DNA of 40,167 bases, taken from a virus. Location of the stretch: the IMG/VR virus record IMGVR_UViG_3300032665_000082, positions 1 through 40,167 of that record. One strand, written 5' to 3'. Position numbers and translations under genes: made by a program. Under the pieces are notes generated by a model. The model was not told where the DNA came from. It worked only from the letters and a program-made list of their open reading frames with translations, and did not search any database. Of the stretch, positions 8,079-35,700 are shown one piece after another. The first letter of the stretch is position 1. Each line of letters opens with the position of its first letter.

Positions 8079-8109
8079 ATATACATATAGTAAACATTCA
8101 GGAGCAGAG

Positions 8110-10850: not shown

Positions 10851-11537
10851 ATGAATGTTAAATTGCTTAGTTATAGCCAGCCAACTGAAGAATTCACTAG
10901 CATGGGAATCTCGGATGCACAAGAACTCATTGCCTACTGTGCAAGAGTCAGTAACCCGAGCAATCAGCTTAATACAGAAACCTCAGAAAAGCTCATACGA
11001 TATCTTATTAAGCACCAACATTGGAGTCCTCTCGAAATGGTGTCCGCCTGCATCGAGATTACTACTACAAGAGATATCGCAAGACAAATCCTTAGACATA
11101 GAAGCTTCAGCTTTCAAGAGTTCAGCCAACGTTATGCTGACCCAACAAAGGATCTCAACTTTGTACTTAGAGATGCTCGCAAGCAAGATACCAAAAATAG
11201 ACAAAACAGTATAGAGCTAGATCCTCATAATAATGATGAAGATCGGTTCCTTGCCTATCAATGGGAACGTATGCAAGAACTAGTTATCAAGCAGTCACGC
11301 GATGCATATGAATGGGCTGTTAGTAAAGGTATTGCTAAAGAGCAAGCCCGTGCTGTACTACCAGAAGGACTAATTGAAAGTCGTTTATATATGAATGGTA
11401 CGTTACGCAGTTGGATTCATTTCATAGAATTGCGTAGTGCTAATGGTACACAAAAAGAACACCAAGAAGTTGCTATTGCTTGTGCCGAAGTTATAGCTAA
11501 GATTTTTCCAATGACCACTGATCTTGTAGCCAAGTAA
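10851..11537 (+). CDS. thyX: FAD-dependent thymidylate synthase ThyX
   Basis: ThyX makes dTMP from dUMP using methylenetetrahydrofolate, NADPH and FAD. The 228-residue protein has the diagnostic RHRX7S signature at residues 82-92, within RHRSFSFQEFSQRY. QHWSPLEM at about 56-63 and LPEGLIESRLYMNGTLRSWI further on fit the flavin- and nucleotide-binding parts. The length is normal for the family. It is the last gene of the right-facing block and replaces the ThyA-type td of T4. A strong terminator lies 18 bases after the stop, and the opposing gene overlaps its last 41 bases. Confidence 0.95.
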   Translation: MNVKLLSYSQPTEEFTSMGISDAQELIAYCARVSNPSNQLNTETSEKLIRYLIKHQHWSPLEMVSACIEITTTRDIARQILRHRSFSFQEFSQRYADPTKDLNFVLRDARKQDTKNRQNSIELDPHNNDEDRFLAYQWERMQELVIKQSRDAYEWAVSKGIAKEQARAVLPEGLIESRLYMNGTLRSWIHFIELRSANGTQKEHQEVAIACAEVIAKIFPMTTDLVAK

Positions 11538-12153
11538 AATCGTTAATCTTAGATAATGCCTCCGGATTGGAGGCATTTTTTTCTCCGTATTCTCTTCCTG
11601 CAAGTGCGCCATTAATTGCATCTAAATCCGATCCTACAGTACACCATCGGTTTAAACGAATCTCTGCTTCTTCATTTTTTATTATTGATAATTTACAACA
11701 TTCTCTAAATGCACTACGCCAAGTACTAAACGGATCTGTGTTAAAGGCTGTTATGTTGCTAACTTCATCCATAACTTTAAAATTAGGACTAATATTCATA
11801 GTCATATCTATACTATCAGTACTCATATTCATAGTTAATTTTTTTGGAAGTAGTTTTACTCCGCCATAACCATACTCTAAATTGTTAACAGGATTACGAC
11901 TTTTCCAAACATGAACAACTTCTAAATCCCAGTCTGGAACACTATAATCAAAATTAAAAGAATCTAGTATTATTGCATCTGCGTCTACTACCCAAAACAT
12001 TTTTGTAAATGCTTTTTTGGCGGCGGCGATATGTGCTTGATGTATACCAGTAATCCCGTGTATACGTTTTGCTAACGGAAATCGTTCTTTTAATCTAGCA
12101 AAGTTTTCATCCGCATACACTTCATTATAACTAATGAATAAAATATCGTACAT
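11497..12153 (-). CDS. Glycosyltransferase-like protein (218 aa)
   Basis: This is a paralogue of the 298 aa gene just upstream: FISYNEVYADENFARLKERF and RIHGITGIHQAHIAAAKKAF align with FLSYNEPNAEKNY and RVHGVKGSDAAHKACAK. The tail TWLQDQW aligns with DWLADQW. A DxD-like VDADA at 56-60 is the candidate metal/nucleotide-sugar site of a GT-A fold. YGYGGVKL corresponds to YGNGGLKL of the paralogue. The gene starts by TAATG overlap with its neighbour. Its 3' end overlaps thyX by 41 bases and carries the thyX terminator. The substrate is unknown. Confidence 0.7.
   Translation of the reverse strand: MYDILFISYNEVYADENFARLKERFPLAKRIHGITGIHQAHIAAAKKAFTKMFWVVDADAIILDSFNFDYSVPDWDLEVVHVWKSRNPVNNLEYGYGGVKLLPKKLTMNMSTDSIDMTMNISPNFKVMDEVSNITAFNTDPFSTWRSAFRECCKLSIIKNEEAEIRLNRWCTVGSDLDAINGALAGREYGEKNASNPEALSKINDFTWLQDQWSLEKS
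11555..11582 (+). terminator. Rho-independent terminator after thyX
   Basis: AATGCCTCC (11555-11563) pairs perfectly with GGAGGCATT (11569-11577) around GGATT, followed by a T-run (11576-11582). The T-run is only on the right-facing strand; leftward reading gives TTATCT. It therefore ends thyX transcripts only. It lies within the coding sequence of the opposing glycosyltransferase-like gene, encoding residues about ASNPEAL of that protein. Confidence 0.88.
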
Positions 12154-13049
12154 TATCGTCTTTTTACAGTGCGTGGAATATTTTCGTAAACTTGTTTAAA
12201 GAATTTACTTACATCTTTACTAGGTTCTACAAGTTCTAAATTGCACTCATGTTTAAGAGTTTCGCCTAGACCGCTTATTTCGTGGGGTAACATTTCATTT
12301 GTTATTTTACTATATGTTGTTTTCCATTGATCTGCTAACCAATCAAAATCTCGAACATTACTATAGTCCCAATCTGTACACAATGTTAAGTATGCACCTT
12401 CTCTTGCTCCATACATACTCCAAAGACCGTTATCTACATCTGCACCAATGTTACACCATATTAGCAGTCTATGATAGTTCTTCCACCAAATTTCTTTAGT
12501 ATTAGTTACTTTAGCTCCTTGGACTAAACACATCTTAACACCTTCGCGAAATCCTGCTCTCCAGGCTTGTTCTGGAGTTGCATTAGTAAAGCTGTCACTG
12601 TAGCATTCATCAAATTGATAATACTTGTCATCAAAACAAAACTCAACTCGACCTTTGTCATCATTCGGATCACTATTTTCATGAGTACGCATGTTATTCA
12701 CAAATTTACGTGTCCATAATTTGAGCCCACCGTTTCCGTATTTTAAATTGTTTACGTAGACATTACCACACCAGCTAAAGACATTATCATCAGTAAATTT
12801 TACACCGTCAATTTCAATTTCTACTTCTAGAAATTTAGGATCGATGATATTGTCACCGTCTACTGTAACAAAGTATTCTGTTTCACTTAATTTTGCACAG
12901 GCTTTGTGTGCGGCATCACTGCCTTTAACTCCATGAACACGTTTAGCCCAAGGAACTTTTGTAAGCAAATCGGCATAGTTTTTTTCAGCATTAGGCTCGT
13001 TGTAACTTAAAAATATAATATCCTGTTCTATAATTTTAATTGTCTTCAT
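12153..13049 (-). CDS. Glycosyltransferase-like protein (298 aa)
   Basis: The 298-residue protein has an N-terminal FLSYNEPNAEKNYADLL, then KRVHGVKGSDAAHKACAK, and VTVDGDNIID with DGD at 64-66 as a candidate DxD. From memory this family occurs in T4-like cyanophages and is annotated as glycosyltransferase-like. The protein carries a Trp-rich second half (WRAGFREGVKM and IWWKNYHRLLIWCNIGADVD). The AAGGAT upstream of the ATG serves as ribosome site. It overlaps the upstream gene by 14 bases. The acceptor (fibre protein, cell surface or DNA) is not known. Confidence 0.7.
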   Translation of the reverse strand: MKTIKIIEQDIIFLSYNEPNAEKNYADLLTKVPWAKRVHGVKGSDAAHKACAKLSETEYFVTVDGDNIIDPKFLEVEIEIDGVKFTDDNVFSWCGNVYVNNLKYGNGGLKLWTRKFVNNMRTHENSDPNDDKGRVEFCFDDKYYQFDECYSDSFTNATPEQAWRAGFREGVKMCLVQGAKVTNTKEIWWKNYHRLLIWCNIGADVDNGLWSMYGAREGAYLTLCTDWDYSNVRDFDWLADQWKTTYSKITNEMLPHEISGLGETLKHECNLELVEPSKDVSKFFKQVYENIPRTVKRR

Positions 13050-13653
13050 TTATAATCCTTAATTTTTGACTTTCAAAAATTAATCTTGTTGCTATGTTAA
13101 TTTTGTCTATATTTAATTCAAACGTGTTTTCAAAAGGTATACCAATACAATTTTTTGTAATTATTTCACGAGAATCTATAACAATAGTTCTAATTAAAAA
13201 ATCATAATCATTTTCTAATATAACAAAAAATAATAATTTAGAATTTTCTAATTTTCCAGTAAGTCGTTTTTTAGCAGTATCTGATAAAAAGAAATTCCAT
13301 TCTTTATTAGGACCGTGCCATTCTACTAATAGTTCTGGGTTTGTAACTGTGTTATCAGTTATAACCTCCAGCATGGTATTTTGAAATTTGTATGCTTGGG
13401 CAATTACTGAAATTAATTTTAAAGTAGTTGTGTCACCGTCTTTAACATACCCTAAAAGATAATCGCTAAATTTGTCTTTACCTGAGGAAAATCTTTCAAA
13501 TGTATCAAAGTCTACTTCAAGGTAATCTGTAAATCCCGGATGTTTTTCGTTTGTGGCGGCTAGCACAGCGTTTGTTGTTTTATCATAATACACATAATAT
13601 GTATTTGTACGATGCGGAGGGGGAGGCAATACTACTGTTTTTTTACGAGCCAT
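13036..13653 (-). CDS. Unknown protein in glycosyltransferase cluster (205 aa)
   Basis: The 205-residue product starts with a basic Pro-rich segment (MARKKTVVLPPPPHRTN), followed by YYVYYDKTTNAVLAATNE and a beta-rich body. AAGGAG lies 8 bases before the ATG. It overlaps both neighbours (by 11 and 14 bases), so it is co-translated with glycosyltransferase-like genes. It could be a small virion or adaptor protein; no domain is recognised. Confidence 0.7.
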   Translation of the reverse strand: MARKKTVVLPPPPHRTNTYYVYYDKTTNAVLAATNEKHPGFTDYLEVDFDTFERFSSGKDKFSDYLLGYVKDGDTTTLKLISVIAQAYKFQNTMLEVITDNTVTNPELLVEWHGPNKEWNFFLSDTAKKRLTGKLENSKLLFFVILENDYDFLIRTIVIDSREIITKNCIGIPFENTFELNIDKINIATRLIFESQKLRIINEDN

Positions 13654-14500
13654 ATGCTAACTCCTTTAATCGTTTTAATACAGACTGATTAATAAAATCT
13701 TTTTCTACATAATGAAATAATCCTGCCTGTTTAATATTGCCAACAACAAAATCACCTTTATCGGTAATCATATAATTTACAAAATTTCTCCAACTGCTTG
13801 GAGTAGATTCCCATCCTTGAATAGGAGTTTTCATATGTACGAATTGCAGTATACCTAATTCGTCTACTACAGTATCCCACATTCCAGAAATTTCAATAGC
13901 AATAGCAGTAGCTAAATCCATACTAGACCATTCTTGAGGATCAAGTGGAGCAAATGTTCCTCGACAAAATTCCCAATTAGTAATAACAAACTCTAATACT
14001 TTATAAAATTCAAAGGCTGCTTCATTCTTTTTAAAATAGTGTAACGCAAAATATGGATTAGATAGGTTATTAGAAATAAATGTTTTTCGATGAAATGTAT
14101 CTTCTAGTACTTGTTCTTGTTTATAATTAAGTATTTTAGAACAAAATTTAACATCGTAATTGCTACAATAATTCCACCATGTTGATATGTCTTTTAATAA
14201 AAGCATATCAGTATCTAGTACAATAGTTTCATCGTACGGAGTTGCATAATAAAATTTCCAGCGGTTTTCTGTTTTTAAAATCGAATCTTGAGTTTCATCG
14301 AACCACGGAATTGGTATAATTTGATCAAACACTGATCTATACTCATCAGGCACTGGATCATTTGTAATTAAAGATACCGATTTAACATCTGTTTGACTAA
14401 ACTGTATGCTCAATGCTAATGCATACGCTTGAATAATGTAATCAACATCTTTAGTATTCTGTGCAAATAATAAAAATCCTTTAGACACCAGATCCTCCAT
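13643..14500 (-). CDS. Glycosyltransferase-like protein (285 aa)
   Basis: The 285-residue protein begins GFLLFAQNTKDVDYIIQAYA, with SVSLITNDPVPDEY near 41-54 and VLDTDMLLLKD near 94-104, so D96-T-D98 is a DxD-type metal site of a GT-A fold (GT8-like). The YDETIVLDTDML strand-turn is typical of that fold. The second half has Trp-rich acceptor-like parts (WSSMDLATAIAIEISGMWD). It shares its plan with the 282 aa gene immediately upstream, with which it overlaps by 20 bases. The product and acceptor are unknown; nearby tail fibres are a candidate target. Confidence 0.75.
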   Translation of the reverse strand: MEDLVSKGFLLFAQNTKDVDYIIQAYALALSIQFSQTDVKSVSLITNDPVPDEYRSVFDQIIPIPWFDETQDSILKTENRWKFYYATPYDETIVLDTDMLLLKDISTWWNYCSNYDVKFCSKILNYKQEQVLEDTFHRKTFISNNLSNPYFALHYFKKNEAAFEFYKVLEFVITNWEFCRGTFAPLDPQEWSSMDLATAIAIEISGMWDTVVDELGILQFVHMKTPIQGWESTPSSWRNFVNYMITDKGDFVVGNIKQAGLFHYVEKDFINQSVLKRLKELAYGS

Positions 14501-15329
14501 CTATAAATCTAGATAAACTCATTTTGTTTATTACATGAACATCTATACCGGTTGTCTTTGTCATGAGGTATTCTCCTATATAATTTTTTTTAGGAGTTAG
14601 GAATTGCATACTATCGTCTTTTGCCTCAACTAGTAAATCAGTATCCATAATATAACTCATAGTTCCTGGAAGTTCTACCGCAAAATCTCCTTCTGTTTTA
14701 CCATTCATAATGTGAATAGCAATACTAAAAGCAAAGTCGTTCCTAAATGTTGAACTATCGATATTATACAACAATTTAAAGTAGGACCAGTTTTCTTTAA
14801 TATAAGAAATTAAATTAAAAAACGATTCAGTAACTATGTTTTTTTGGAATACAAATACCGTTGCCCAATAAAATGGAATACTGTATTGATTTATTCTTTT
14901 AAATTCTGCAGAACTACGATCAACTGCTAAGTCGAAGCTATTGCGATATATTTGAAAATCGTAATTGTTGTTTAACGCATGTTTTAATATTTTTGAATTG
15001 ATAATATAATCACTATCAATTACTAATGTACGATCGTACGGTGTTAAATCATATATAGTGCTACGTGCTTCGTTTTTCCAAGGTAGATTTTTTGATTCTA
15101 AACTACCATCGTAGAATTTTTTAGTTTGGTTAGATGGACTAAATTTGATTTCGATAATTTGGTCGAATGGATGATCTGGAAACTTGTTTAACAAATATTC
15201 TTTACTATCTGTTACAATAGATACTGGGATTTCTAAATATTGTTTTACTCGTGAAGCCGCAAATATTGATAATTTAATATAGTCAATAGTCAAATTATTC
15301 TGAGCAAATATTACTGCGCCGGTTGTCAT
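14481..15329 (-). CDS. Glycosyltransferase-like protein (282 aa)
   Basis: This 282-residue protein is a divergent paralogue of the downstream 285 aa gene: AVIFAQNNLTIDYIKLSIFA, PVSIVTDSKEYL, and TLVIDSDYIINS with D105-S-D107 as the DxD candidate. It has the same GT-A layout and a similar length. Translation begins by ATGA overlap with the 116 aa gene upstream. The sequence is AT-rich and rich in Asn/Ile/Phe. Together with its neighbour it forms the second of two glycosyltransferase-like pairs in this cluster. Confidence 0.75.
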   Translation of the reverse strand: MTTGAVIFAQNNLTIDYIKLSIFAASRVKQYLEIPVSIVTDSKEYLLNKFPDHPFDQIIEIKFSPSNQTKKFYDGSLESKNLPWKNEARSTIYDLTPYDRTLVIDSDYIINSKILKHALNNNYDFQIYRNSFDLAVDRSSAEFKRINQYSIPFYWATVFVFQKNIVTESFFNLISYIKENWSYFKLLYNIDSSTFRNDFAFSIAIHIMNGKTEGDFAVELPGTMSYIMDTDLLVEAKDDSMQFLTPKKNYIGEYLMTKTTGIDVHVINKMSLSRFIDGGSGV

Positions 15330-18229: not shown

Positions 18230-19363
18230 TTACCATGTGCTTAAAGCCGCACGTTTCCAGGTGTTAGTTGCAACACATACATAAACATAGCTCGAATCCC
18301 ATTCAATTTGCCCGGTAACACCTGTGCTAGAACTAGTTGCTGGAGTCGCAGATGTTGTTATTTTTAAAGCGGTTCCTGAAATAGTGCCGCCTGCTGTTAT
18401 TGCACCGCCTAAAATTGCATTTCCAGTAGCATTAATAGTACCCGTAACGTCTAATCCGTACTGAGGATTTCCATTAAAAATACCAACATACTGGCTACTA
18501 GCATTTATAAACAACGCAGGAGACTGTGTTGACCCTGCTAGTGTAGATATTTCAAAATTCTGATTTGGAGAATTTGATTTAATTTGAAATAATAGTGTGC
18601 TTATATCTATCTCATTATTACTATTAGATCCTAAAATTAAAGGAGTAGAATCCTGTAATGTTAATGTTCCAGTAATAACTTGATCGCCTGTTATTTGTAC
18701 TAACTGATCTGCTGTATATGTTATTCCTTCAGCACTTAACAACTGTGTTGCAGTTAATACAGGAACATTAAACTGCGTACCTGTTAAATTTCCTACATTA
18801 AAACCAATGCCGATGTTTCCAGAAAACCCTGTAATAGAGCTTGCTGGTGTAAATGCTGATTTACTAAAGATTCCTATCAAGCTATTAGACACATACAAAT
18901 ACACAATGGTGTGATTTATGTTATTAGTATCAAGTATATCTTCTACAATAAATCCACTTTGGCCTTGAGTACTAGTGTAGATCGGACCAGCTAATACATT
19001 CGACACACCATCATTAAAATATAATTGAGCTGTTGCTGTATTAATCCACATATCTCCTGTAGTTAAACTACTAGGAGCAGTTGGTGCAGTTAACGTACCT
19101 CCGCTAACAACAAACTGGCTTCCATTATATACCTTTAATCGATTTTGTGTTGTATCAAACCATAGCTGACCTGTTAAAGGATTAGCTGGTTGAGTAGTAT
19201 TAGCAAAATTTTCCAACATATGAACAAAGTTATCGTTAACATATAGTCCATATCCAGTTGCATTCTTTCCTATTAGAGTCAAATCTGTAGATGTTTGATC
19301 TATAGTACCGTCAACTATTTGTGTTAGAACGGCTCCGTCAGTTAAATTTATAGTATAACTCAT
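18230..19363 (-). CDS. Tail fibre (377 aa), paralogue
   Basis: Residues about 1-85 repeat the shared module (LTLIGKNATGYGLYVNDNFV, then MLENFANTTQPANPLTGQLW). The rest is beta-rich with GSNSNNEIDISTLLFQIKSN, then SQYVGIFNGNPQYGLDVTGT, and a terminal short domain ending CVATNTWKRAALSTW, common at fibre ends. The start overlaps the preceding stop by one base (TAATG), so it is coupled to the 792 aa fibre gene. It looks like a distinct adhesin arm built on the same base. The target is unknown. Confidence 0.78.
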   Translation of the reverse strand: MSYTINLTDGAVLTQIVDGTIDQTSTDLTLIGKNATGYGLYVNDNFVHMLENFANTTQPANPLTGQLWFDTTQNRLKVYNGSQFVVSGGTLTAPTAPSSLTTGDMWINTATAQLYFNDGVSNVLAGPIYTSTQGQSGFIVEDILDTNNINHTIVYLYVSNSLIGIFSKSAFTPASSITGFSGNIGIGFNVGNLTGTQFNVPVLTATQLLSAEGITYTADQLVQITGDQVITGTLTLQDSTPLILGSNSNNEIDISTLLFQIKSNSPNQNFEISTLAGSTQSPALFINASSQYVGIFNGNPQYGLDVTGTINATGNAILGGAITAGGTISGTALKITTSATPATSSSTGVTGQIEWDSSYVYVCVATNTWKRAALSTW

Positions 19364-21741
19364 TATATAACACCAGTGAAAATTATGTAGTTAATAGTTA
19401 AGTAAGGATTCATTATTGAAATCGGTGTTGGCGGATTTGTTGCACCAATAATACTTCCACTATTGCTAAGTCCGTACCCTTGACCTATTTGATCCTGAAC
19501 GGTTAAACCTTGGCCGACTGTTGCGTTTGCATCTGATGCGGCCGCTGGGGATCCAACGGCGTAATATTGAGCGTTGCCATCATTAAGGCTGTGTTTGTGA
19601 TCTGGTAAATTAGTAGTTGCCAATGTAACATTTTGTGTACCAGAACTTGCACCTACTAAATCAGCAGTGACAGATGACACGCGATTTGCTGTTCCACCAC
19701 CTGCCGAAATTTGTACACCAGAGCCGTCACCTGCTGGCACTGTAAGACCATTGCCCATATTATCTGGACCAAGTGGGAAACGACCTCTTAGATCCGGCAA
19801 TGCAAATGTACTTAGACCTTGCAACTGTGAAGATGCCTTATAAGTATATTGCAATACTGCAAACAACCCTGGATATGACGATATAAGAACTTCACTACCG
19901 TCACATAACAAGTAACCAGCTGGTATATTAGATCCTGTTCCAGCAAATGGAAATATTGCGCCGATTGGCACTGTAGCCACATGGTTGAACAACACCGCTT
20001 TCGACATTTTTACAAGACCTGAACCGCTTTGATAAACTAAAAATTGGTCAGTTAATGACGAATCTGTTGCGGCAGATTTACTTGTAATAAGAGTTTGGTT
20101 AATAGTTGTATTAAAACTGATAGTTCCGCTAGCAACTTGACCATTAAATTCGTATCCAGGGCTAGTAACGTCTCCTGTTATCTGAAATGTTGTTGCTGAT
20201 TGAAGTTTAGCGGCTGCTCCAGATATACTACCTGTCAACGAACCAGTGAATGTTCCGTTAAAATTTCCAGTAAACGTATTAGCATACACGTTTCTAAATG
20301 TATGTGAGCTACTACCAATGTCATATACTCCATTAGCACTTGGCAATATAGACACAGAATTAAGATCTGCGCCTACATTTATTGCGCCAGATGTTCCTGT
20401 AGTAGTTCCACCAACTGTTAATGTAGTTCCAATACTAGCACTCAATGCCGCAGATAGGCCGCCTTGGGTTTGTATACTTGCTCCACCTGGATCAAATGGG
20501 CTACCACTAGTTGTAGTTACGTCTGTTGTACCTGTAATTATCAAACGACCTGGGACTGGAGCGGAAGGTACTGCACCTACAAATTGTAACGTAGCTGTAC
20601 CGTCAACGGCTGTACCACTAGTAAAATTAGGCGACGTTGTTCCTGTTGTTCCTGCTACTGTAACCCGATAGTAATAATTATTAGAAGTAATATAAGTGTT
20701 CAATGTTACAGCAGTATTGCTAGTCCATGCTATCGACTGCGTACTAGGATCGTCTTTAATAGTAGTTCCACCAATTACATCTAGTGTAGATTGTGGATTA
20801 GTGTTGCTTGCTCCAATACCTAGTCTAGAATTAGCATTAAGATGCATAGAAGTTACTACTGTACCTGCATTATTTGTTGCAAATTCTATAGCATTTCCGC
20901 TACTTTTAGAATATAAAACAGTATTATTTCCGTTAACGCCAATATTAAATCCTAAGCCAGCGCCTAAGGTAATACCGCCATCATTTCTTACGTTAATCGG
21001 ATAATTTGCAACAGTAGTTGTATCACCGCGTAAAAAGTTTGCGGCTGCTACAGTAGTTGTTCCTACTAATAATGCATCTGCTTGTTGAGCAGTACCCCAG
21101 TATCTAGTTAAGCTAGAAGAATTATTTGAATCAATGCTACTTAGATTAAATCCTTCATTGATAGAAGTAAAACCATTAATATTTGCTTTTGGCGTAAAAG
21201 CATCTTTACTTATAATTGCAAGTCTGTAACTAGTAGTTGTGTCACTACTGCTACTTCCGTAAATAGTTGTTACATTGTGTGCAATATTATTTGTATCAAC
21301 GATAGTTTCTACAATTGGTCCTGTTTGCAATCCTGAACTAAATTGAGGTCCAATTAAAACAAAACTACTTCCAGAATACAAATATAATTGATTGTTTGTT
21401 GTGTCAACCCACAAGTCACCGGCTAATGCAGAACTCGGTGCTGTTCCGGCTTTTTTAAGACTTCCAACTGGATTCCAAGTTGTTCCATCGTATACATAAA
21501 GTAAATTAATATTAGCTGAAGTGTCAAACCACAGTTGGCCTTGTACAGGATTAGCTGGAGCTGTATTATTAGCAAAATTTTCTAATAAATGTAAAAAATC
21601 ATTTGCAATAACCGATCCGTAGCCTGTATAATTCTTTCCTACAAATTGTAAACTAGTCGTGCTATCTATAGTGCCGTCTTGAACAACGATAGGTTGTTTA
21701 TCAGGATTATTTGATTCAGTAAATGTAACAGTATAAGACAT
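19363..21741 (-). CDS. Tail fibre with tail-collar domain (792 aa)
   Basis: Residues 1-90 hold the shared fibre module (LQFVGKNYTGYGSVIANDFL, then HLLENFANNTAPANPVQGQL). The middle is Thr/Ser/Gly-rich beta. Residues 591-665 form a phage tail-collar domain (VPIGAIFPFAG, PAGYLLCDGSEV, FALPDLRGRFPLG) as in T4 gp12-like short fibres and MdpB-like proteins. HKH at 715-717 (LPDHKHSLN) could bind metal. It ends with MNPYLTINYIIFTGVI. An AGGAGC ribosome site precedes the ATG. It is the best candidate for a short tail fibre. Confidence 0.85.
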   Translation of the reverse strand: MSYTVTFTESNNPDKQPIVVQDGTIDSTTSLQFVGKNYTGYGSVIANDFLHLLENFANNTAPANPVQGQLWFDTSANINLLYVYDGTTWNPVGSLKKAGTAPSSALAGDLWVDTTNNQLYLYSGSSFVLIGPQFSSGLQTGPIVETIVDTNNIAHNVTTIYGSSSSDTTTSYRLAIISKDAFTPKANINGFTSINEGFNLSSIDSNNSSSLTRYWGTAQQADALLVGTTTVAAANFLRGDTTTVANYPINVRNDGGITLGAGLGFNIGVNGNNTVLYSKSSGNAIEFATNNAGTVVTSMHLNANSRLGIGASNTNPQSTLDVIGGTTIKDDPSTQSIAWTSNTAVTLNTYITSNNYYYRVTVAGTTGTTSPNFTSGTAVDGTATLQFVGAVPSAPVPGRLIITGTTDVTTTSGSPFDPGGASIQTQGGLSAALSASIGTTLTVGGTTTGTSGAINVGADLNSVSILPSANGVYDIGSSSHTFRNVYANTFTGNFNGTFTGSLTGSISGAAAKLQSATTFQITGDVTSPGYEFNGQVASGTISFNTTINQTLITSKSAATDSSLTDQFLVYQSGSGLVKMSKAVLFNHVATVPIGAIFPFAGTGSNIPAGYLLCDGSEVLISSYPGLFAVLQYTYKASSQLQGLSTFALPDLRGRFPLGPDNMGNGLTVPAGDGSGVQISAGGGTANRVSSVTADLVGASSGTQNVTLATTNLPDHKHSLNDGNAQYYAVGSPAAASDANATVGQGLTVQDQIGQGYGLSNSGSIIGATNPPTPISIMNPYLTINYIIFTGVI

Positions 21742-22411: not shown

Positions 22412-24073
22412 TTAATCCGTTCTTGCACCCTGAGTGATCCTTGGATAAGTAGGTCCTGTACCCCTAAAACCAAAATTTTGCTTAGGAAAAGTAGATCCTG
22501 TATGCATTAGTTTGTACAATGTAGTACCTATCGGAACACCTAAACCAGTGACTGCATCCCATCCGCTAGTAGTCTTGTAACCATTTACATAAACTGCATT
22601 TTCCCCTGAAGTAATATCAGTAAAAGCAGACGGATTGGCATAGAAGAACGTATTAGCAAACCCTAATCTGTTACCAGTAAGTTGATTAAGACGGGCAACC
22701 ATTCCAGCCATCAATGGACAAACTGCGCTAGTGCCGCCATATTGACTTCTTGTATTAGAATTTCCCCAATTAAATGTATAACCTGTGTTAGGATCTGCAT
22801 TTCCAGCAATGTCCGGAACACCCCTAACGGTCAATGTAGTAGCAGATCCACTAACACCCCCGGTTGAATATGTAGTATAAGTTAATCCAGATTGCCAAGA
22901 CTGTATCGATTGATACGTGCTCAGTCCGCCGCCTGAATCAGTCCAGGCAACTTCTGTAGATCTAGAACTTCCAGAAAGTTGTAACGATGTTCCGCCACAC
23001 GCTGTTACGTATCTGCTCGACGATGGATACAAAACTTCTGTAGTAGATTGACCCCATGTTGAGCCACTATCGCCGCTTGATACTAAAATTGTTATGCCCA
23101 ATGTTACTGCTTGTGCTAAAACATTATCAGTAGCACTGACGTAAGTTGAATTCCAATAAGATGTTTCTCCAGCACCCCAACTTGTACTAAGAACACTAGG
23201 GCTGTTAGTAGTATCGTGAATTGCTGTATTGAAATTATTATACCAATTAGACCCAGCTGTAGGGCTACTAGATCCTGCACCATAACCAAAATAAGTAACA
23301 TATCTAGCTTTTGGTGCTACTCCGGCGGCGCAGTAAATATCTAACATAACTTCAGGGGATCCGTTATTGTCGCCTGGGTTATTAGTTCCGCCGTCAGTTA
23401 ATACACTTGTAATTGTTGGATTAGATAACCCTAATGGAGAAAAACTTGATGTTAAATTACTAGTTGTCCAACCTCCTCCCCATTCCATAATTCCAACACA
23501 AACACCATATCCGTCACCGGCAGGAAAATTGTAAGCAGTAGCAACTTGTGGTGGAGTAAGACTCACCGCAGTTTGTGATATACTGCCATCATAAGGAACT
23601 GCTTCTCGACTAATAGTAACAGATAAATCAAGTCCTAACACATATTCAATAACAGTATCTAACACACTAGGAATATGCATTGTGCCATCGTAACTCATGT
23701 ATGATCTGTCGGCTATTGTAACAGTATTCAGTGTAATACCAAATGCAGAATTAATTTGTGAAACTGTTCCACTTAATTTTATAGTAGCACTTGGTGCATG
23801 GCTATCTACAATAGTAAAACCAGTTGCCGTAGCAAAATCAGATATGAGTGATATGTCAGTATCTAATGAATTAAATTGATTACAAAAATCAACATAAGAC
23901 AAAATTTTATTTGTACCAGCAATTACACCATCTGCATATTCAGTAATAGACATTGGCCTGCGGAGCATTATGCTGAAATTAATTACGTTTCCAAGATTTA
24001 CTGGAGCAACAGATGCTCCGGCAGGTATAGTTAGAGTACTATTTGATAACGCGACAGTTGGAGTTAAGTTCAT
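22412..24073 (-). CDS. S53 sedolisin (kumamolisin-type serine-carboxyl peptidase, 553 aa)
   Basis: This is a complete prokumamolisin-like protease. Residues about 30-160 match the activation prodomain (DSHAPSATIKLSGTVSQINS, then AFGITL). The catalytic domain follows LTPPQVATAYNFP near 172. The full S53 set is visible: E241 and D245 in PEVMLDI, oxyanion D335 in VSSGDSGS, and nucleophile S449 in YGGTSAVCP. The calcium-site region is DITSGENAVYVNGYKTTSGW followed by DAVTGLGVP (D486/D506). No signal peptide is visible. It begins one base after the stop of the 877 aa fibre gene, with poor Shine-Dalgarno, so coupling is likely. A virion or processing role is inferred from its place in the tail module. 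Confidence 0.92.
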   Translation of the reverse strand: MNLTPTVALSNSTLTIPAGASVAPVNLGNVINFSIMLRRPMSITEYADGVIAGTNKILSYVDFCNQFNSLDTDISLISDFATATGFTIVDSHAPSATIKLSGTVSQINSAFGITLNTVTIADRSYMSYDGTMHIPSVLDTVIEYVLGLDLSVTISREAVPYDGSISQTAVSLTPPQVATAYNFPAGDGYGVCVGIMEWGGGWTTSNLTSSFSPLGLSNPTITSVLTDGGTNNPGDNNGSPEVMLDIYCAAGVAPKARYVTYFGYGAGSSSPTAGSNWYNNFNTAIHDTTNSPSVLSTSWGAGETSYWNSTYVSATDNVLAQAVTLGITILVSSGDSGSTWGQSTTEVLYPSSSRYVTACGGTSLQLSGSSRSTEVAWTDSGGGLSTYQSIQSWQSGLTYTTYSTGGVSGSATTLTVRGVPDIAGNADPNTGYTFNWGNSNTRSQYGGTSAVCPLMAGMVARLNQLTGNRLGFANTFFYANPSAFTDITSGENAVYVNGYKTTSGWDAVTGLGVPIGTTLYKLMHTGSTFPKQNFGFRGTGPTYPRITQGARTD

Positions 24074-24074
24074 A

Positions 24075-26708
24075 TTATTCTAATCTTAAGTAAGTTAGTG
24101 TTACAGTAATTGCCGCTGAACTGCCGCTATTATTGTAAATTTTTAAATAAGCGTTTGCTGATACAGAAACATCATTGTTGTATCCAAACACTGCTGGACT
24201 AAAATAAGTTGTAGTTGCTACAGTTGTTATTGCTTCTGCTACTACACCGCTTCCTGGTGTAGGATCAGTAGTAATGCTTCTGCTATTATCATTACTTTGA
24301 GCTGTTGAACTAGTATACAATGTTACCCATGCTCCGGCACTAACTTGAATACTATATAAAACATATCCTTTACCTATAGTAACTGTTGCTGTAGCACTTG
24401 ATTGATTTGATAATGAAACTGTAGTTGCTGAAACAGTATTACGAGTATTAGCAACTGTACTAATGGTGCCACTACTGCTAGTAATAGTAGTACCATCGAC
24501 TTTAACACCGCCCAACACTGATGTTGTTGCTTGCGGTAATGTATATGTGTACGGAGAAGTTATAACACCATTATTAATTGTAATAGTAGTACCATCAATT
24601 TTAACGCCACCTAGTATGCTAGTAGTCGCTGTTGGTAGACTATAACTTCCAGATCCACCTGTTGAACTGATAACTCCGTTGTTAATTGTAATTGTAGATC
24701 CATCAACTTTAACACCACCTAATATTGATGTTGTTGCAGTTGGCAATGTATATGTGTATGGAGAAGTAATAATACCATTATTAATTGTAATAGTAGTACC
24801 ATCAACTTTTACTCCGCCTAATATTTGATTAGTTGCTGTAGGAAGATTATAAGTGGCAGCTGGGGTAAATGTAAACACTCCGGTTGCATAACTTAAACTA
24901 CCTGCACCGCTAGCCGCGGCAGTAGTTACACTTAAACTGCTTGACTGTAACGGTGTAAATCCTAATGCGTTAGTAACTTGTGTGCTTGTTAATGTATTTC
25001 CACTGATACTAGTTACTGTAGCGGCATTACCAGTAATACTACCTGTAATAGTATTAGTTACAGTTAAATTAGTCAGTGTGCCAACACTAGTCAAACTACT
25101 ATTAATTACATTACTTGCTAAGGTTGTTCCAGTTAACGTGCCAGCAGAAGCCGCTGTTCCTGATCCAGGAATTTGTTGCCATGTAGTTCCGTTATAAATT
25201 ACATAATCGCCTGCATTAAAAGTATACCCTAATGCTGTACCTCCAGTTGACACTGCATATTCCCAACCTGCTGTTCCAGAACCGTTTGTTAATGTAGGTG
25301 TATTAGTATTTGCGTTCCATGTACCTTTAAAAATAACTGCGCCGGCTAAACTTGTAGGAATTTGTGAAGATGTTAAATGCCCAGTACTATCTAATGTAGC
25401 AATACCGCTGTTGGCTCCTACTGTTGCGGCAATTGGAACACTAATTGTTCCATTGTTGATGATAACACTAGACCCGTCAACTTTAACTCCACCTAATTGG
25501 GTGTTACTTGCAGTTGCTAGTCCGATAGTTCCACTAGTATTATTAATACCACTAGTACCAACTGCTGGAATAATAACTCCACCTAACGTTGATGTAGTTG
25601 CAGATGGTAAAGAATATGTGCTGACTGAACTAATAACACCAGTACTTGTATTAATAGTAATAGAAGTTCCGTCAACTTTAACACCGCCCAATAATCCTGA
25701 ACCGCCTGTTCCGGCTAGTGGTAACGAATAAGGAACATAATTAGCAGTAATCATTCCACCGTTAATCGAAATTGTAGTTCCGTCAACTTTGACTCCACCG
25801 AGGACACTAGTGGTTGCTGTTGGTAGTGAATAAGGAGTAGCAGTAATAACTCCATTATTAATAGTAACAGATGTTCCGTCAACTTTAACACCGCCTAATA
25901 TGCTAGTTGATGCAGTTGGCAATGAATAATTTGTATAGTTAGCAGTAATAACTCCAGCATTAATTGAAATTGTACTACCGTCAACTTTTACTCCTCCTAA
26001 CACAGTAGTAGTTGCTGTTGGTAGTGTATAAATTGTAGCTGGAGCACTAATTACACCGCTACCATTGATTATAATACTCGACCCGTCAACTTTTACTCCA
26101 CCTAATATACTAGTAGTTGCTGTCGGCAACGAATAAGCACCAGGTGCCGCTGATATTATTCCGCTACCATTTATTGAAATTGTGGTGCCGTCAATTTTGA
26201 CGCCACCTAATATACTAGTAGTTGCTGTTGGCAATGAATATGTATTTGCGCCACTTATAATTCCATTATTAATTGTAATAGTAGTACCATCAACTTTAAC
26301 TCCACCAAGTATACTAGTAGTTGCTGTCGGCAATGAATAATGAGAAGTTAAAACTCCATTACTGCTTGTAATTGTTGTACCGTCTACCGATGCAATACCA
26401 GCAGTAGTCGATGATGCAATTGGTACACTAGTAAGTTTTGTATAACTTAAACTATTAATCCATACTGGATTAACGTACGACCCTGTCGTAACCACACCAT
26501 TGGTTACAGTAACTGGTTGCCAAACCAAAGATGTGCCATTAGTGAACAACGCATAACCTGCATTGCCGGTTTGGTTAGGTAAAGAAGAAGTAGCTATAGT
26601 TCCGTAAATTTCAGAAAAATTTGCATTTATTTTTTGTCCAGCTGTACGCAACGTATCACCTGTATGATCTCCTACATGTGTGCCGACATTAATAATTTGT
26701 TGTGTCAT
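24075..26708 (-). CDS. Repeat tail fibre (877 aa)
   Basis: The N-terminus (IINVGTHVGDHTGDTLRTAG then QKINANFSEIY) is the usual fibre attachment start. Residues 124-424 and 620-752 hold about 13 copies of a roughly 33-residue unit (YSLPTATTSILGGVKVDG, TTITINNGVI), probably repeating beta-turns of a thin shaft. Residues 425-619 form a non-repeated section, including WEYAVSTGGTALGYTFNAGD then YVIYNGTTWQQIPGSG. The C-terminal 120 residues match the common phage fibre head domain with GYVLYSIQVSAGAWVTLYTS and AITVTLTYLRLE. It is placed between the giant gene and the sedolisin gene. An AAGGA ribosome site lies inside the giant gene. Confidence 0.85.
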   Translation of the reverse strand: MTQQIINVGTHVGDHTGDTLRTAGQKINANFSEIYGTIATSSLPNQTGNAGYALFTNGTSLVWQPVTVTNGVVTTGSYVNPVWINSLSYTKLTSVPIASSTTAGIASVDGTTITSSNGVLTSHYSLPTATTSILGGVKVDGTTITINNGIISGANTYSLPTATTSILGGVKIDGTTISINGSGIISAAPGAYSLPTATTSILGGVKVDGSSIIINGSGVISAPATIYTLPTATTTVLGGVKVDGSTISINAGVITANYTNYSLPTASTSILGGVKVDGTSVTINNGVITATPYSLPTATTSVLGGVKVDGTTISINGGMITANYVPYSLPLAGTGGSGLLGGVKVDGTSITINTSTGVISSVSTYSLPSATTSTLGGVIIPAVGTSGINNTSGTIGLATASNTQLGGVKVDGSSVIINNGTISVPIAATVGANSGIATLDSTGHLTSSQIPTSLAGAVIFKGTWNANTNTPTLTNGSGTAGWEYAVSTGGTALGYTFNAGDYVIYNGTTWQQIPGSGTAASAGTLTGTTLASNVINSSLTSVGTLTNLTVTNTITGSITGNAATVTSISGNTLTSTQVTNALGFTPLQSSSLSVTTAAASGAGSLSYATGVFTFTPAATYNLPTATNQILGGVKVDGTTITINNGIITSPYTYTLPTATTSILGGVKVDGSTITINNGVISSTGGSGSYSLPTATTSILGGVKIDGTTITINNGVITSPYTYTLPQATTSVLGGVKVDGTTITSSSGTISTVANTRNTVSATTVSLSNQSSATATVTIGKGYVLYSIQVSAGAWVTLYTSSTAQSNDNSRSITTDPTPGSGVVAEAITTVATTTYFSPAVFGYNNDVSVSANAYLKIYNNSGSSAAITVTLTYLRLE
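24453..24851 (-). repeat. Coding tandem repeats, block B of the 877 aa fibre
   Basis: Four further units of the same LGGVKVDG type are separated from block A by about 590 bases of unique coding sequence. The DNA similarity to block A offers sites for homologous recombination that would delete or expand the shaft. Confidence 0.78.
25437..26339 (-). repeat. Coding tandem repeats, block A of the 877 aa fibre
   Basis: About nine imperfect units of roughly 96-105 bases encode LGGVKVDG-type repeats. Several copies are nearly identical in DNA, notably around the segment encoding TATTSILGGVKVDG. Copy variation by recombination is possible. Confidence 0.8.
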
Positions 26709-26709
26709 T

Positions 26710-29700
26710 TTATGTTGTTCCTTGATCGAATGTTAAATTATCGCCATCAAATGTAAGATCTACGCTGTCTATTGTAGTCGATCCACTTGTGCTTGTTTGC
26801 TCGTATGCTGAATACCAAATGCCTGGTTCTGCTCTTAAAAATTCAGCAATAATTCCAGTATCGTATAGAATATCTATAGAGCTATCCCATGCTGTACCAG
26901 TATTTTTAATTACAGTTATTTGTGTGCCTTCTGTTAACAAATTAGTTAATGTTACCTTAGCTGTTGTTCCATCAACTGAAAAATCTGGAGCAAACGTTAC
27001 ATCACCTGCTGGACTGTACGGTGCGTTGTTTATGTTAAACACAGTATACCCTGTTTTCTTTAAACGAATATTTCCTATAAAGAATTTCCAAACTACGCTA
27101 GAAGCTATGTTTGTGTTAACTGTAGTAACAATATTTCCATTAATAGTTACAGTTGTAACTGGACTAAAGAATGTTGCGCCACTAATATGATTAGAAATAC
27201 ATCTATAAGTGTAACTTCCTACAGTTATTATTGTACCTACAGAGTAAGTTACACCGCTGGCCCACTCGGCTCCATCATTGTAGCCGCCTACGAACACTTC
27301 GATATCATTTACTGAATTTGGTACGAACGGTAAATCAACTATGTTAGTACCGTCGCTTGTTATTTGTTCAATAACTTGAGTATCATTGTACGGAATAGTT
27401 TCTGAAGTACCAATGTCTTGAACGTATGTGCCAGCAGTAACTACCTTATTAACTCCGGTGCCTAGTGTACCACGTCTCAATTGGCTTAATGTATTTCCAG
27501 ATATCTGGAAGTATTCGATACGTTCGCCGCGAATTTCCAAAACACCAGGTTTATTAGAAGCTGGGTTTGGTACATCAAATTTACTAGCATCTTCAACTAC
27601 AATACTAACGTCATTCCAATGCAAATCTTGTGCTAATGTTGTGCGTTTTGATAAACTTAAACGTTTATATGAAACACGATTCAACATGTCTTTAAATTGC
27701 ATATACGCAATGCCGGATGTTAAAATAATACTTCCAAATGTAATCACAGTCATTTGGTCATTTAATACCAAGTCTGTTGCCATTGTAATGCTTTGATGGT
27801 CATCGTTTACTTTATAATCAATGCCGGGCACAAGCAATGTTGAATTTTTTACTAGCCATACATAATCATCTGAAATAACAGATCTATCTAATCCTATCAA
27901 CCCACCAGTTAATGCTTGGTAAGAATAAAACTGTGGTGTGTTTGGTGTTAATGTTGCTGTAGTAGATACATTAACATCAGTGCGTTCTATATCTAATGAA
28001 TCGTGCTGATAAGAACTAATAACTTGTACCAAATGAGTATTATCATACGAGTGAGTAAAAGTAATAGTATTAGAAGATGGATTATAGAAATATGTCTCGC
28101 CAGATGTTATACTAACAATTAATTTTTGTCCAGAGTATTGTGTATAAATTGATTTATTAATTTTAACAGTAATACCACTAAGATCAACTATATAATCTTT
28201 TCCTTGTTCTAATATAGTATCTCCTACTAAAACTGCAATATTAGTAATAGGAACAGAATAAGGAACAAATTTTACCGAGTCAATTGTATAGTTTAATCTA
28301 TTACTACCGATAGTAAAATAACTATTGCTAGGGCCAGTAAGTATACTTTGATCTACACGAACAATCATGTTAGATTCGTTAGGCAATGCATTACCAATTG
28401 TATTTTGTAATGTATAAGTTAGATTACCATTAGTTGCTATAGTTTCTACTTTAGTAATTGCAAATGTTTGCGATGATCCAGAAACAATAATATAATTAAT
28501 TACACTGCCAAACATCGGTGCTGTGCCAAATCTTATTCCTATTGCGTTAGGTAATGCATAAGTGTTATCAGTTTTAAACAACGTTGCATTTGCAACTACA
28601 CCATCAACATAGATTAAACTGGTTGTAGGAGTTTGCCAAGTTGTATTTGTAATAAACTCAACAGTGTTGCCATCTCCTACAAAGTAATCAATATCTAAAA
28701 TGTTTGCACCACTAAATCCAATGCTAAACAAACTAATTTCTGAACCAATTGTTGGTGTGGTGTTGAATACAACTTCTGCTTTTTCGTAGTTGACAATATA
28801 GTCTGTTTTAAGAGTTTTAATATTTCCGTCAACCTTAACTATAACTGCTCCAGTACTATTAGGTTGCTGAGTCAATGCAAATGCTGTAGAAGAACCGTTT
28901 GCTACATAGTTGTCAACTTTAACAGAAGCTGATCCTGCGCCAGGCTTATCAAAAACTTTAATAGCCACAGTATCAACAACTTGACCTGGAACTACTTCTT
29001 CTGGTGCTCCGCTTGTGGTTGGAGTAACTAAATCATCGCCGTCTACAATAATATCATCGGCTAATAATCCAGTAGCTGTAGCATATACACCACTTAAGAA
29101 ATTGCCGCCATCTAATGATGTATCATAATCTTTTGATTGCGGTGCAATAGATCCATCGCTAGTGCTTTGTCTAATGATAAACGTATCGCCAGAATTAACA
29201 GTATATGTATTAGGTAATGTAACTGTTGCTGAAATACCGTCTGCTACTGGTGTTACCATAATAGCATTTTTATTAGTTGCTGACGAGGTTCCATTAAAAT
29301 CTAATGCGTCTATTTTTACAGGATTTGCAATACCCGCTTCTACTTTATAAATGTTCAATAGTGTGTTTGCTGATGGAACATATGGTAAAGTAAATGCATG
29401 TTCGTTTGCGCCTGCTACAACTTTATAATCTGTGTAGTTGTCATCATATTCATCCCATGTGTCTGAATAATAAGGCAAGCTATCCCAACCTAATGCTACT
29501 TGGAATCCAAGTCCATCGACTATTACACCACCGTAATCGATTCCAGTCATTAGCTGAGACAAGTCTTTGCCTAACATTCCAGATGTTGGATTGTAAAAAT
29601 ACTGGATTCGGTCATTTGCAGACAACAGTGATTCGTCAATGTTGTATGTTACTACAATACTACTCTTGTTTGCAGGTGCTGTAACAAATGTAATTGTGCC

Positions 29701-32700
29701 AGAATATTGTGTATATCCATTAGCTTTTGATGAAACAATGTTTAATACATATCCGTCTCTTAGAGCAGGAATGCCATTAACGGTAACTGTACTTTGTCCA
29801 ATTCTTACATCTGGGCCCCATATCAATGGAAACTGCACTCTAGATCCAGAGCCAGTAAATTTTTCAGTTTTTTGCAATTGAGTAATATAATATGACTGAT
29901 CAACCCTATCAAATTTAATACCCATCTGCATTGAACGAATTAGTCCGTTGCCAATAATTGCCGATGCTGTAGCAGCCGTGCCGCCTAGAGCAAGACCGCC
30001 ATCAATAGTAATCGTAGGAGCAGACAAATATCCACTTCCAGGAGTTAGCAACACAATTCTTCCTACTGTACCATTAGTAATGAATGCTCGCGCAGTTGCG
30101 CCAGAGCCACTATCACTGGTAATAACAACTTGTGGTTCTGTTACATAATTAGACCCTGCGTTAGTTAAAATTATGTCTGTTATATTAAACCCAACATTCT
30201 CTTCCCAGAATTTCCATGGGTAGTTTTGAATGTTAGCATCGCCTGTTGTTATACTTCCAGAAGATACATACGCATTGATAGTTGTTATACTTCCATTTTC
30301 GTATATTGGTTGCAAATCAAAGTCAGTGATAGGCAACTGTGCAAGATCTGTACCAGTATAATCATCGATGTATTCTCGAACATTAGTTCTGTATGGTTTA
30401 ACTTCGTTGACGAAATCTTCAAAATTACTTAGATTGTCAGGACGATATGTTACTGGCTGATCTAATCCGCCAACATTGTGTTGAGCTTTAACAAAACTAG
30501 TTTTGAATATCCAATCTACATATGGTTGTTCGCTGTGCGCATATCTTACACTATTAAAGAATAATTTCAAATATGAACCGGTTAATGTGTTTACAAAAAT
30601 ATCATTCTTTAAACTAGTTAATATTATTCTTAATTCAGCAGCCGCATATTGGTCATATCCCTCTGTATCAAAAGTGCTATTATCGAAACCTAGTTGAGTT
30701 CCAGTAGTTTGGTATAATGAAGAACTTAATTGTATTGTACCGTTTTGTATACCAATGACACTGTATGATTGTGTCCAGTCGACTGATGTAGAGTTTGCAT
30801 ATTTTTCTAGTAACAACCAGCCTCCGCTGTTAACTGTTCTTACTTTAACTATTTCGCCGATTGATACTGATATTGAATTTAAATCAACTATTGTAGCAAC
30901 TGAAAAATCTGCCGCTGTAAACTGACTAAATCCGGTAGAATACCAGTCTGCATAATTCCAGAATTTTCTCACATCATATGCTTGAGTTATTATTCTAGAC
31001 CAAATCTTAGTAGTAGGATCGTAAGAATATATACTCCAGTTACCTTCCGATTGGCTATCATTTTTAACTAACGCAGAATAACTTCTTACAACAAATACAG
31101 TATTGCTGTCGTAACCTTCTCCAGCAGATTCAATATCAACTCCAGTAATTTGTCCTTTAGAATTAATAATTGTTTTAATTACTGCACCTGTACCAGAACC
31201 AATTACCTCAACATATGGCGCAACTAGATATCCTTTACCAGAAGATTGAATAATAACTTGGGCAATTTTACCGTTAGTAGTCGATGGATCTACTAGAGTT
31301 AATGTTGGCATTGCAAAGTTTCCAACATTAGCATACACTAATTCTGCATCAGTATCAAAAGTTGTATCATATAATCCTAGTATTTCATTAGGAACAGGAT
31401 CGTAACTGTTTAACGAATCCATATTAATATTTTCAACGATTTGATTTTGCAATAACACTTGATTTGTTAAATCTATAAATTCTTTTAACGCTTCAAATCT
31501 ATTAACAAACATTCCTTGTCGAGGACGATTTTCAATACCGTAGCGTAATTTTGGAGGAAGTTTAGGATCTGGAACTACCCTACCTGCAAAATCTGATCCG
31601 CATAAACTATCAATCCATTTTGCTTCAATTGCTGGTGGAATATAAGTTGTTGGATCTTCGCTAATAATTTTCCAATGACTATGAACATTTTGATCTGTCT
31701 TGTCGATTAACCAGTATTCTACACTTAACACAACTTGTGTTTCATGTAAAAACTGTTTTGCATTTACTAAACTAAAGCTATCAAGTCCTGTTAATGCAAG
31801 GTATGTATAACCACTACCTCGTGGATTAGCAATTAGATTTGCAACATCCGCTGCCGCTAAATTTCTTCCCGGCACATTTGGAATAAATTTCTTGTTTTTA
31901 ACCCAGAAATAATATGTATTTTTAAATGACTGGGTAACTGTATTATATTTTTGTACAACTGTATATGCTGTATTTCCGTATAAACTTGTTCCACTTATGC
32001 CGGCAGCATTACCTGTAGGAGTGTCGGCCAAACTATCCCACACAGCAGGTAATTGATTATAAGATACCCATTCGTAAATATCAATGCTTGCGCCTTTAGC
32101 TAAGGTGTTCCAGTTTGTGTTTCTATAAACAGGATCATTTTCATAAACATTTAAAAATTTAGCAGTTCTTAAATCCCACCACAATGTTCCAACTTGATTT
32201 GCGTTCCATGCTGTGCCGCTATTGACATTAACAGTAGCATCTCCCACAGTATATGTTGCAGGATCATAAAATGCTTTATACTTTATTTCTTCCTCGGCAG
32301 GGCCTGCTATTTTTCCTTGAGCAGGATCTATTACATCTACATAAGTTAGTAATTCTCCGCTATCTTTATTGTACAAGAATGCTTTTTTAAGTTTCTTAAC
32401 ATCAGGTTTATCAATTTCTGTTTGGATCATGCTCCAAGTGAAAGATCCAACAGGCTTAGTATAATCATAAACTATACCAGATACTAACCCCCTATCAATT
32501 GCTTCTGGAGCACCAATTAAAATATTATTATTTCCTACGGCAATACCTGTACCGTATCCGTCTGCTATTACAGATTCTCCGCTAGGTATTGCCGCAGTTC
32601 CAGTACCTGTGCCTGAGCCTGTTGCAACAAACTCGACACCAACTTCATTTAAACTAGCACCAATTGATGTAAAATCTGTATTGCCTATTGAAAGAATAGC

Positions 32701-35700
32701 ATATCGATTACCTGGTATAAATGCTCCAGCTTTTACAACAGGATTTGATTTAGATAACGATTCACTGAATACCCAAGAAGTAGCATATCGATCGTAAACA
32801 TCCACACGACCTGCATTTGATTGATTCACTGAAAACGCTGTTGAGTCTTTGTCAAACGTTGTCGAATTGTTGTCGAACGTTGTTGTAATTAAAGAATCAC
32901 CATATAGACTATAAACAACTATAGTATCGCTATCATTCATAAACGACACTTTAGCACCAAATTGTCCATTTGTTTCTGGTTGATGAGGAATTAAACTTTC
33001 AGGTGTAATTGTATTATAAGATCCTGTTGTAGAATCATATGTATATACAGTAACGGTTCCTTGTCCGTGAATACTAGTACTTGCTTCGCTACTACCAACT
33101 ACGAAATAAGTTCCATCATAAGATAAATCAAAATCAACAGATGTGATAGAAAAACCAGTAAAATTATCAATAGTGTTTAGAACTAAATTCTTATATACAT
33201 TAATTTTTGCAACTGTAGTTGTGCCGGATGTGTATAATCCAGACACCGCAAGTGTTGAACTATCACCGCTTAATTTTACTTCTGTACCAAAATTTGTATA
33301 AGCATCAGATGGTGCTGTAATTGTAGAAGATAATTTATATGCCCATCCAACTACTGCAAATTTTATAATACCTGAAGGAGCACTATCAGGTGAACCGCTT
33401 AACAATAAAGTAGTAGAATTTATTACCGATTCCACAATTTGACCGCTAGTAAATCCTGTACCAATCACGTACATTCCAGCACGAATTCCAGTTGTACTAG
33501 TTACTGTTAATGTAGAATTTATACTTCCCACTGGGTTATAAGCAGAACTTGCTTGTATCACAGTGTTATATATTAAGTTGTAAACTGCGTTGGAACCTGG
33601 AGCACCGATGAATAGTTCGTTGGTGCCAAAAGCCACACTTGATCCAAAATATTCATTTGAACTTATATCATTGCTAAACACAGCAGGGCTAACAATAGTA
33701 TCTACTAATTGATAAATGTTATTCTTGTCTTTTTCATAAAGACTAACAACACCTTGTCCTTGCTGTCCTGCTTGATTTGACACCAATGTCCATTGTCCGT
33801 TTCCGCTATCTGGGGTTAACTGTGCTTGTTGTGTTACATACATTACGCCGGATGCAGTTGTTATGGGTACGTAGTTTGTCGAACTAGGTACTGCGGTAAT
33901 TGTAAACTGTGTTGAACTAACAATATTACCTACATAATATATTTCGCCTGCTGTTACTCCGCCAAACGTTGTTCCAGAAAAAACAATTTCGTAATTAGGT
34001 GCAAGTACAGATGTATCAGCAGTTGTTAGAAGATAACTTCCAGTGGTAGTATTAGTAACTGGTATTGTTACTTTACCATAAACTTTAGTAGTTGCTTGGT
34101 AAACATTGCTTTCATAAACTATCAATGTATTAGCTGGATATGTAACTGTAGGATCCCATGTTCCAAAATTATTAACCGGAACATAGTATACTGGTTTCCA
34201 GTATGCTGGATGACTCGATGGGTTTGATGAAACTGGAACCACTGATAATGCTTGGTAATATGCAATATTACTAATACTATTTCCAATAGATACAATTATG
34301 CCAGGTCCGTATACATTTGCAGAATTATATGTACCAAGGTAATTAGTTACAGCATACCCTGCTAACGGACTGCTAGTTGCTAACCATGAAGCATCTGAAC
34401 TGATATAAATTTGCGAAGCTACTGTATTGCTTGTATTAGGATTATTAGAAATTGTATATGTTGAATATACATTAGATGAAAATGCGGCTTGACTTATAGC
34501 AATACTAACGCCTGGTGTTACAAAAGTAATTTGTGTATTAGCAGGTATTCCTTCTCCTGCAATAGACGATCCTACCATGTTTGATGACGCAGTAGGCATT
34601 ATAACAATTCTACTGTTAATTGTAGTAGTACCAATTGTCAATGTAATAGCATTGGCAGCAATATATGGAGGTTGAATTACTTGTCTCTGAGTCCAGTTTA
34701 GAGAAATTCCAACTTTATCATATGTAATAACTTCGCCAAATGATGTACCAACAGCGGCTAGTGTACCGTCTGTGCTCATTGCAATAGATTGGCCGAATCT
34801 TAATTGATTCTGCGGTGCCGAATTGTTTACATTTATTTTTGCATAAACAGGATTATATTTCCATACAGCCCACTTGCCGTCTCCTCTATCATCTGTCCAA
34901 ATTAATTCGCTTGGATTTAATTTTTTTGTTAGAACTGTATCAAGTGTATTAATAGAACTTGTTCGTTGACTTAATAGTGCATACACAACTAATTCGTTAG
35001 TTTGTGTAAATGGCGTCGGAAACGCAGTAATATTTGGAGCCGAAACGGTAATTGTATTCAATGTAACACTAGTTACTTGATAAAAACCATTTAATAAAGA
35101 AACTTGGTCTAGACCAATATATGATCCTACTGTAATGTTTGTTATATTTTCTGCTGTAAGGGTTAATACTCCTTTAGCAAAGCTAATATTTGTTAACTTT
35201 AAATGTATATCAGTATATCTATAAACATTCCAACTTGGACCTTCAAACGCTACCCAGATGTATGCTCCCTCAGTGAATGTTCTAATGTCATAAGTTGTAA
35301 TCTCTGACAAATAACCTAAACTTAAAAACACATCTGTCGCAGTTACATACCCAGCGTCTCTTAAGAATGGAGAATAATTAGCTAGAATTGGCCACGGTTT
35401 TGAATTATATCCAACTGGTGGCAAATACACATTGCTTGGAAGTTGTTGTATAATAAATGTATTAAGAAGGCCTTGATCAATTGTATTTCCTAATTGAAAA
35501 CCTTGAGGATTTAATCTAAACTTTGCTTCATCTAAAATAAATTCAATGTTTTCAAATGCTCTACTAGCACCGTATTGACCTAAACGTACAGCCCATTCTT
35601 CATAGAATGTTAAACTTTCTTCTCCGAGATTAGTAAGAACACCGAATAATCTATTCAATACGTTTTGTGTTCCTTTGTCTCGAATCATTCCTTGATAAAA

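Follow-up and report, generated by a model that had tools for sequence, protein, structure and literature searches.

What is a complete protease of the sedolisin family (S53) doing in the tail module of an uncultured phage, and if it works there at all, what holds it in place? The locus that raises this question lies in the virus record IMGVR_UViG_3300032665_000082 of IMG/VR, all 40,167 bases of which were analyzed and are referred to below as the window. The initial annotation, made from the sequence alone, described the gene as a complete S53 enzyme located between a repeat fibre and collar fibres, and proposed that its C-terminal extension could be a virion-attachment tag; both of these main ideas are supported by the present analysis, which also points to the likely partner of the tag, namely the C-terminal domain of the preceding fibre. 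The features that are relevant for the discussion are collected in the table.

Table. Features of the 40,167-base window and the basis for their assignment
Position	Strand	Feature	Basis
6944-8032 and 8050-9294	+	MoxR-type AAA+ ATPase followed by a vWA protein with a metallopeptidase-like N-terminus	by eye
11497-13049 and 13643-15329	-	two pairs of tandem paralogues that look like glycosyltransferases	by eye; the one scanned with Pfam and the one scanned with PHROGs gave no hit
19363-21741	-	tail fibre with a Collar domain	PF07484
21755-22363	-	202-aa protein	phrog_11259
22412-24073	-	S53 (kumamolisin-type sedolisin) protease gene, 553 aa, ATG start	Pfam, phmmer, alignment of phage homologues, model
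22415-22498	-	C-terminal extension, residues 526-553, containing the tag FPKQNFGFRGTGPTYPRITQGAR	conserved in phage S53, shared with S8 proteases; disordered in the model
22508-23566	-	catalytic domain, about residues 170-522, with E241, D245, D335, S449 and the D486/D506 calcium-site region	phmmer, alignment of phage homologues
23579-24073	-	prodomain, about residues 1-165	PF09286, residues 54-149 matched; model matches intact pro-kumamolisin
24075-26708	-	repeat tail-fibre-like protein, 877 aa, head-fibre-type repeats; ends 1 nt before the S53 start codon	phrog_15343
24078-24458	-	dock domain, residues 751-877 of the fibre, predicted beta-sandwich	conservation, model
26710-40167	-	giant reading frame of at least 4,485 aa, open at the contig end	C-terminal third matches phrog_10938 (virion structural) and a head-closure-like stretch

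The first issue is whether the gene encodes a complete S53 protease, and by sequence and model this is confirmed. The pro-kumamolisin activation domain is recognized by Pfam above the gathering cut-off (36.9 vs 23.5 bits), and phmmer aligns residues 69-522 with pro-kumamolisin (PDB 1t1e) with E 3e-85, the identity to kumamolisins (1t1e, 1gt9; MEROPS S53) being about 33-39%. The catalytic residues E241, D245, D335 and S449 are those given in the initial annotation and are invariant in 17 aligned phage homologues of about 40-60% identity, as are D486 and the G504-W505-D506 segment of the calcium-site region. The AlphaFold2 model (pTM 0.86) matches intact pro-kumamolisin 1t1e with TM 0.82/0.85. 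A search of NCBIfam gave no hit. The initial annotation also noted the absence of a signal peptide; none is apparent by eye, but the bacterial S53 sequences that we inspected in the same way lack one as well, so this feature is not peculiar to the phage. The C-terminal extension is about 28 rather than 24 residues long; it is the longest disordered stretch of the model (pLDDT < 50) and, notably, it is conserved.

How rare are such genes among viruses? A tblastn search found no S53 relative in 50,697 GenBank phage records, whereas profile scans of IMG/VR returned 16 and then 79 loci; given about 80 viral loci and the conservation of the catalytic residues, chance or artefact can be rejected. 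A degenerate DNA pattern for the tail peptide, GFR-x5-YPRxTxGAR, which is blind to the protease itself, hit five stretches, and all five turned out to be the C-termini of further, diverged S53 proteases. In all these loci with upstream sequence, with the exception of a fusion protein (locus L016) and an outlier (locus L018), the gene preceding the protease varies in length and at the N-terminus but ends in the same domain of about 125 aa, which we call the dock. The dock is a confidently predicted beta-sandwich (pLDDT 95.7) whose nearest predicted relatives are the C-termini of cyanophage fibres; no convincing solved relative was detected (best VIA Z 7.8, Foldseek E 7e-4 to an archaeal virus turret), so no homology is claimed. 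In GenBank, the dock occurs in 48 records, nearly all from Synechococcus phages, and in the six annotated records whose downstream gene was scanned, that gene, 1 nt or so away, encodes a subtilase (Peptidase_S8), a protease of a different family. These S8 proteases end in, or contain after the catalytic domain, the same kind of peptide as the window S53, for example, RQRPTTGHIFPR, KGERTSGMTFPR and KGRRPVEGATYPR. The subtilases in question (T4-GC_292 and relatives in S-RSM4, S-CREM1, S-H9-1 and S-H38) are annotated only as peptidase, subtilisin-like or hypothetical, without an assigned function in the papers that we could read.

The association between the dock, the protease and the tag was then examined in three directions. 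Starting from the dock, a scan of IMG/VR gave at least 561 relatives, of which 80 loci were kept; together with the earlier loci, 110 dock proteins were examined, and the next gene encodes an S53 protease in 45, an S8 protease in 49 and another protein in 16, so that 94 of the 110 docks are followed by a protease, most often with a gap of +1 nt (40/45 S53, 31/49 S8). The loci are partly redundant and partly fragmentary; at 80% identity the full-length proteases form 25 S53 and 27 S8 clusters. Starting from the protease, 70 of the 79 IMG/VR S53 loci have a dock directly upstream, three are cut upstream, and the remaining six comprise five fusions and one cellular-type enzyme (locus L315). Starting from the tag, a blind DNA scan for RPT[ST]GQxYPR gave 39 hits, all of them in frame, with a dock present in 30 of the retrieved loci and elsewhere in the contig in four more; some of the tag loci have no dock in the contig (two such contigs, and several others that are short fragments). 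It should be kept in mind that the tag expressions had been tuned on the data before this blind search, and that relatives of the window may be hidden from some of the searches.

The tag itself has the consensus RP[TSA][ST]G[QPA][TVA]YPR in S53 and RP[TS]SGQ[VT][YFW]PR in S8, and the identical peptide RPTSGQVYPR occurs in one S53 and one S8 protease; the tag of the window protease, FRGTGPTYPR, is a one-residue-shorter variant. The tag, RP[ST][ST]GQx[YFW]PR, recurs in nearly all dock-linked S53 proteases, although a few of the dock-linked proteases (loci L086, L291 and L309) have degenerate tags or no recognizable tag. A loose regular expression finds the tag in 25/30 complete S53 and 19/34 complete S8 proteases, against 5 of 747 background ORFs, one of which is itself an S53 fragment, with a shuffled expectation of about 0.01 proteins. 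In 13 phage records, the tag pattern hits the protease gene in 7 and two other structural-region genes in S-SCSM1, and otherwise yields only 3 matches, against 5 for the reversed control pattern. Thus, a role of the tag as a general virion signal is not supported, given that within whole records it is almost confined to the protease gene, although S-SCSM1, S-H9-1 and others carry it on small proteins beside a dock. The 39 hits of the blind scan fall in S53, S8 and small ORFs of 38-116 aa, near the C-terminus, plus two ORFs of 490 aa. Where the dock is followed by a different large protein (S-H9-1, S-SCSM1, AG-345-P14), the tag sits on a small protein one gene further on, and in a second layout of the system, small ORFs of 48-116 aa ending in RPT[ST]GQxYPR lie about 0.9-1.5 kb after a dock, with an unrelated large protein in between. 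Nor does the tag need to be terminal, because in some S8 proteases (L025:6377-8383, L027:6374-9298, L030:6377-8548 and L111:5175-7979, coordinates within the respective loci) it is followed by further domains, cupredoxin-like or esterase-like.

In six loci (L016, L272, L283, L302, L307 and L312), the S53 domain forms the N-terminal part of a larger protein with cadherin-like or Ig-type repeats, and these proteins have neither a dock upstream nor a tag; no dock was found anywhere in the 90,668-base contig of L016. Fisher's exact test gives a p value of 3e-8 for this pattern, which overstates the evidence because the loci are related. Because L016 lies inside the phage S53 clade, the fusion seems to be derived. 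The S8 of P-SSM2 lacks the tag and its neighbouring collagen-like protein lacks the dock, whereas the S8 of S-SCSM1 is fused into a 1,411-aa virion protein without a tag.

So where does the phage protease come from? A profile search of genome contigs with the phage-only profile found no relative, but after kumamolisin was added, 80 bacterial S53 homologues were examined, mainly from Burkholderiaceae, Acidobacteria and other soil or bog bacteria, and none of the 80 has the tag, nor does a dock lie near them. The 31 phage sequences other than L018, the fusion L016 included, form one clade with 100/100 support, so that recent capture of a host gene by this one phage can be rejected; L018 and L315, which come from viral-labelled contigs without dock or tag, are nearer to bacterial kumamolisins and possibly represent cellular DNA or an independent acquisition. 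Within the phage lineage of the window, one locus (L039) has a dock 82% and a phrog_11259 protein 88% identical to those of the window but an S53 that is only 43% identical, whereas a locus with another backbone (L002) has a 59% identical S53. Four further relatives (L103, L105, L107 and L108) have the dock directly followed by the phrog_11259 gene, without any protease in between. The protease is therefore an exchangeable, optional part next to a backbone gene. In locus L022 (3853-5119), the S53 gene is split into two overlapping frames, by a frameshift or an assembly error, with intact copies present in related contigs.

The hypothesis that, in our view, most likely accommodates these observations, and that we favor with reasonable although not high confidence, is that this is a virion-mounted protease: the S53 zymogen is produced directly after a fibre protein and is proposed to bind the C-terminal dock of that fibre through its predicted disordered tag, so that the fibre tip carries a protease that would act outside the cell, probably on a protein layer or receptor on the host surface. 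The binding of the tag to the dock, the presence of this enzyme in the particle, its activity, the autoactivation of the zymogen outside the cell (at low pH for S53) and the substrate are all inferences, as there is no direct evidence that this protease is in particles or active. Of the functions suggested in the initial annotation (fibre maturation, digestion of host surface proteins, or escape), host-surface digestion appears to fit best. That the docks are virion components is documented for relatives: the P-SS2 dock protein (ORF087, profile E 2e-26) was detected by mass spectrometry in purified virions with an average of 11 peptides (PMC2784084), and for S-SCSM1, in which 45 virion proteins were found by mass spectrometry (PMC9602691), the record marks a dock protein, its partner and the S8 fusion as virion proteins, notes that, by our reading, derive from the mass spectrometry. 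Two complications have to be acknowledged, namely that about 12 of the 110 docks have no tag-bearing gene downstream, so the dock is not only a tag receptor, and that nine dock-linked S53 proteases of 407-425 aa lack the prodomain, starting directly at the catalytic domain while keeping the tag, so zymogen protection is not universal.

Among the alternatives, the one that survives best, although we consider it unlikely, is a maturation protease that cleaves the phage's own fibre or neighbouring structural proteins during assembly, with the tag serving as a recruitment signal for the substrate. The protease gene is adjacent to, and probably translationally coupled with, a single fibre gene, and phage head-maturation proteases are well known. 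However, S53 and S8 proteases, with presumably different specificities and pH ranges, interchange beside the same dock; relatives of the same lineage keep the dock and its neighbours without any protease; S53 enzymes generally act at acid pH, unlike that of the cytoplasm; and fusion to stalks implies display. Still more doubtful is a soluble lysis or release factor that would be liberated at lysis to break down host debris or surface proteins, the tag having another role such as stability; the lack of a signal peptide and of direct proof of virion binding leaves room for this possibility, but the conserved adjacency to one fibre domain, the dock-tag association in all three searches and the fusion to structural stalks speak against it. 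Finally, that the protease fold is used only for receptor recognition, with catalysis irrelevant, is improbable because, even though in other dock loci the gene after the dock encodes a large protein without a recognized protease domain, the catalytic residues are invariant over a deep phage clade and two catalytic families fill the same slot.

Literature searches for sedolisin or kumamolisin in connection with phages gave nothing relevant, and cyanophage S8 peptidases are only listed (PMC3037559); the dock-tag association and the exchange between S53 and S8 appear to be undescribed. Phage tail enzymes described so far mostly cut sugars or peptidoglycan, whereas here a widespread cassette seems to place true proteases on tail fibres. 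Should the tag indeed bind the dock, this would provide a minimal rule for attaching enzymes to phage particles, assign a location to many unannotated cyanophage subtilases, and imply that some aquatic bacteria and cyanobacteria are shielded by, or recognized through, surface proteins that the phage must cut.

A more far-reaching possibility, which is tentative and on current evidence rather unlikely, is that aquatic tailed phages share a general display system in which a fibre-tip predicted beta-sandwich and a ten-residue peptide, RPxSGQxYPR, allow proteases of different families to be plugged onto the virion, the choice following the water in which the phage lives, with acid-active S53 in acidic bog lakes and S8 in marine water. 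Kumamolisin-type zymogens are typically activated at acid pH, which would keep the enzyme silent in the host and start it in acidic water. The pH part of this hypothesis is weak, however, because only one S53 metagenome is documented as acidic (IMG 3300000553, Trout Bog hypolimnion, PMC6344600; lake pH 4.8, PMC5636890), most samples could not be traced, and two metagenomes (3300037189 and 3300032271) hold both kinds of cassettes.

Elsewhere in the window, apart from the giant reading frame upstream of the dock fibre and the putative glycosyltransferases (see the table), a MoxR-type ATPase gene is followed by that of a vWA protein; such pairs have been proposed to function as virion-assembly chaperones in jumbo phages (PMC7824862).
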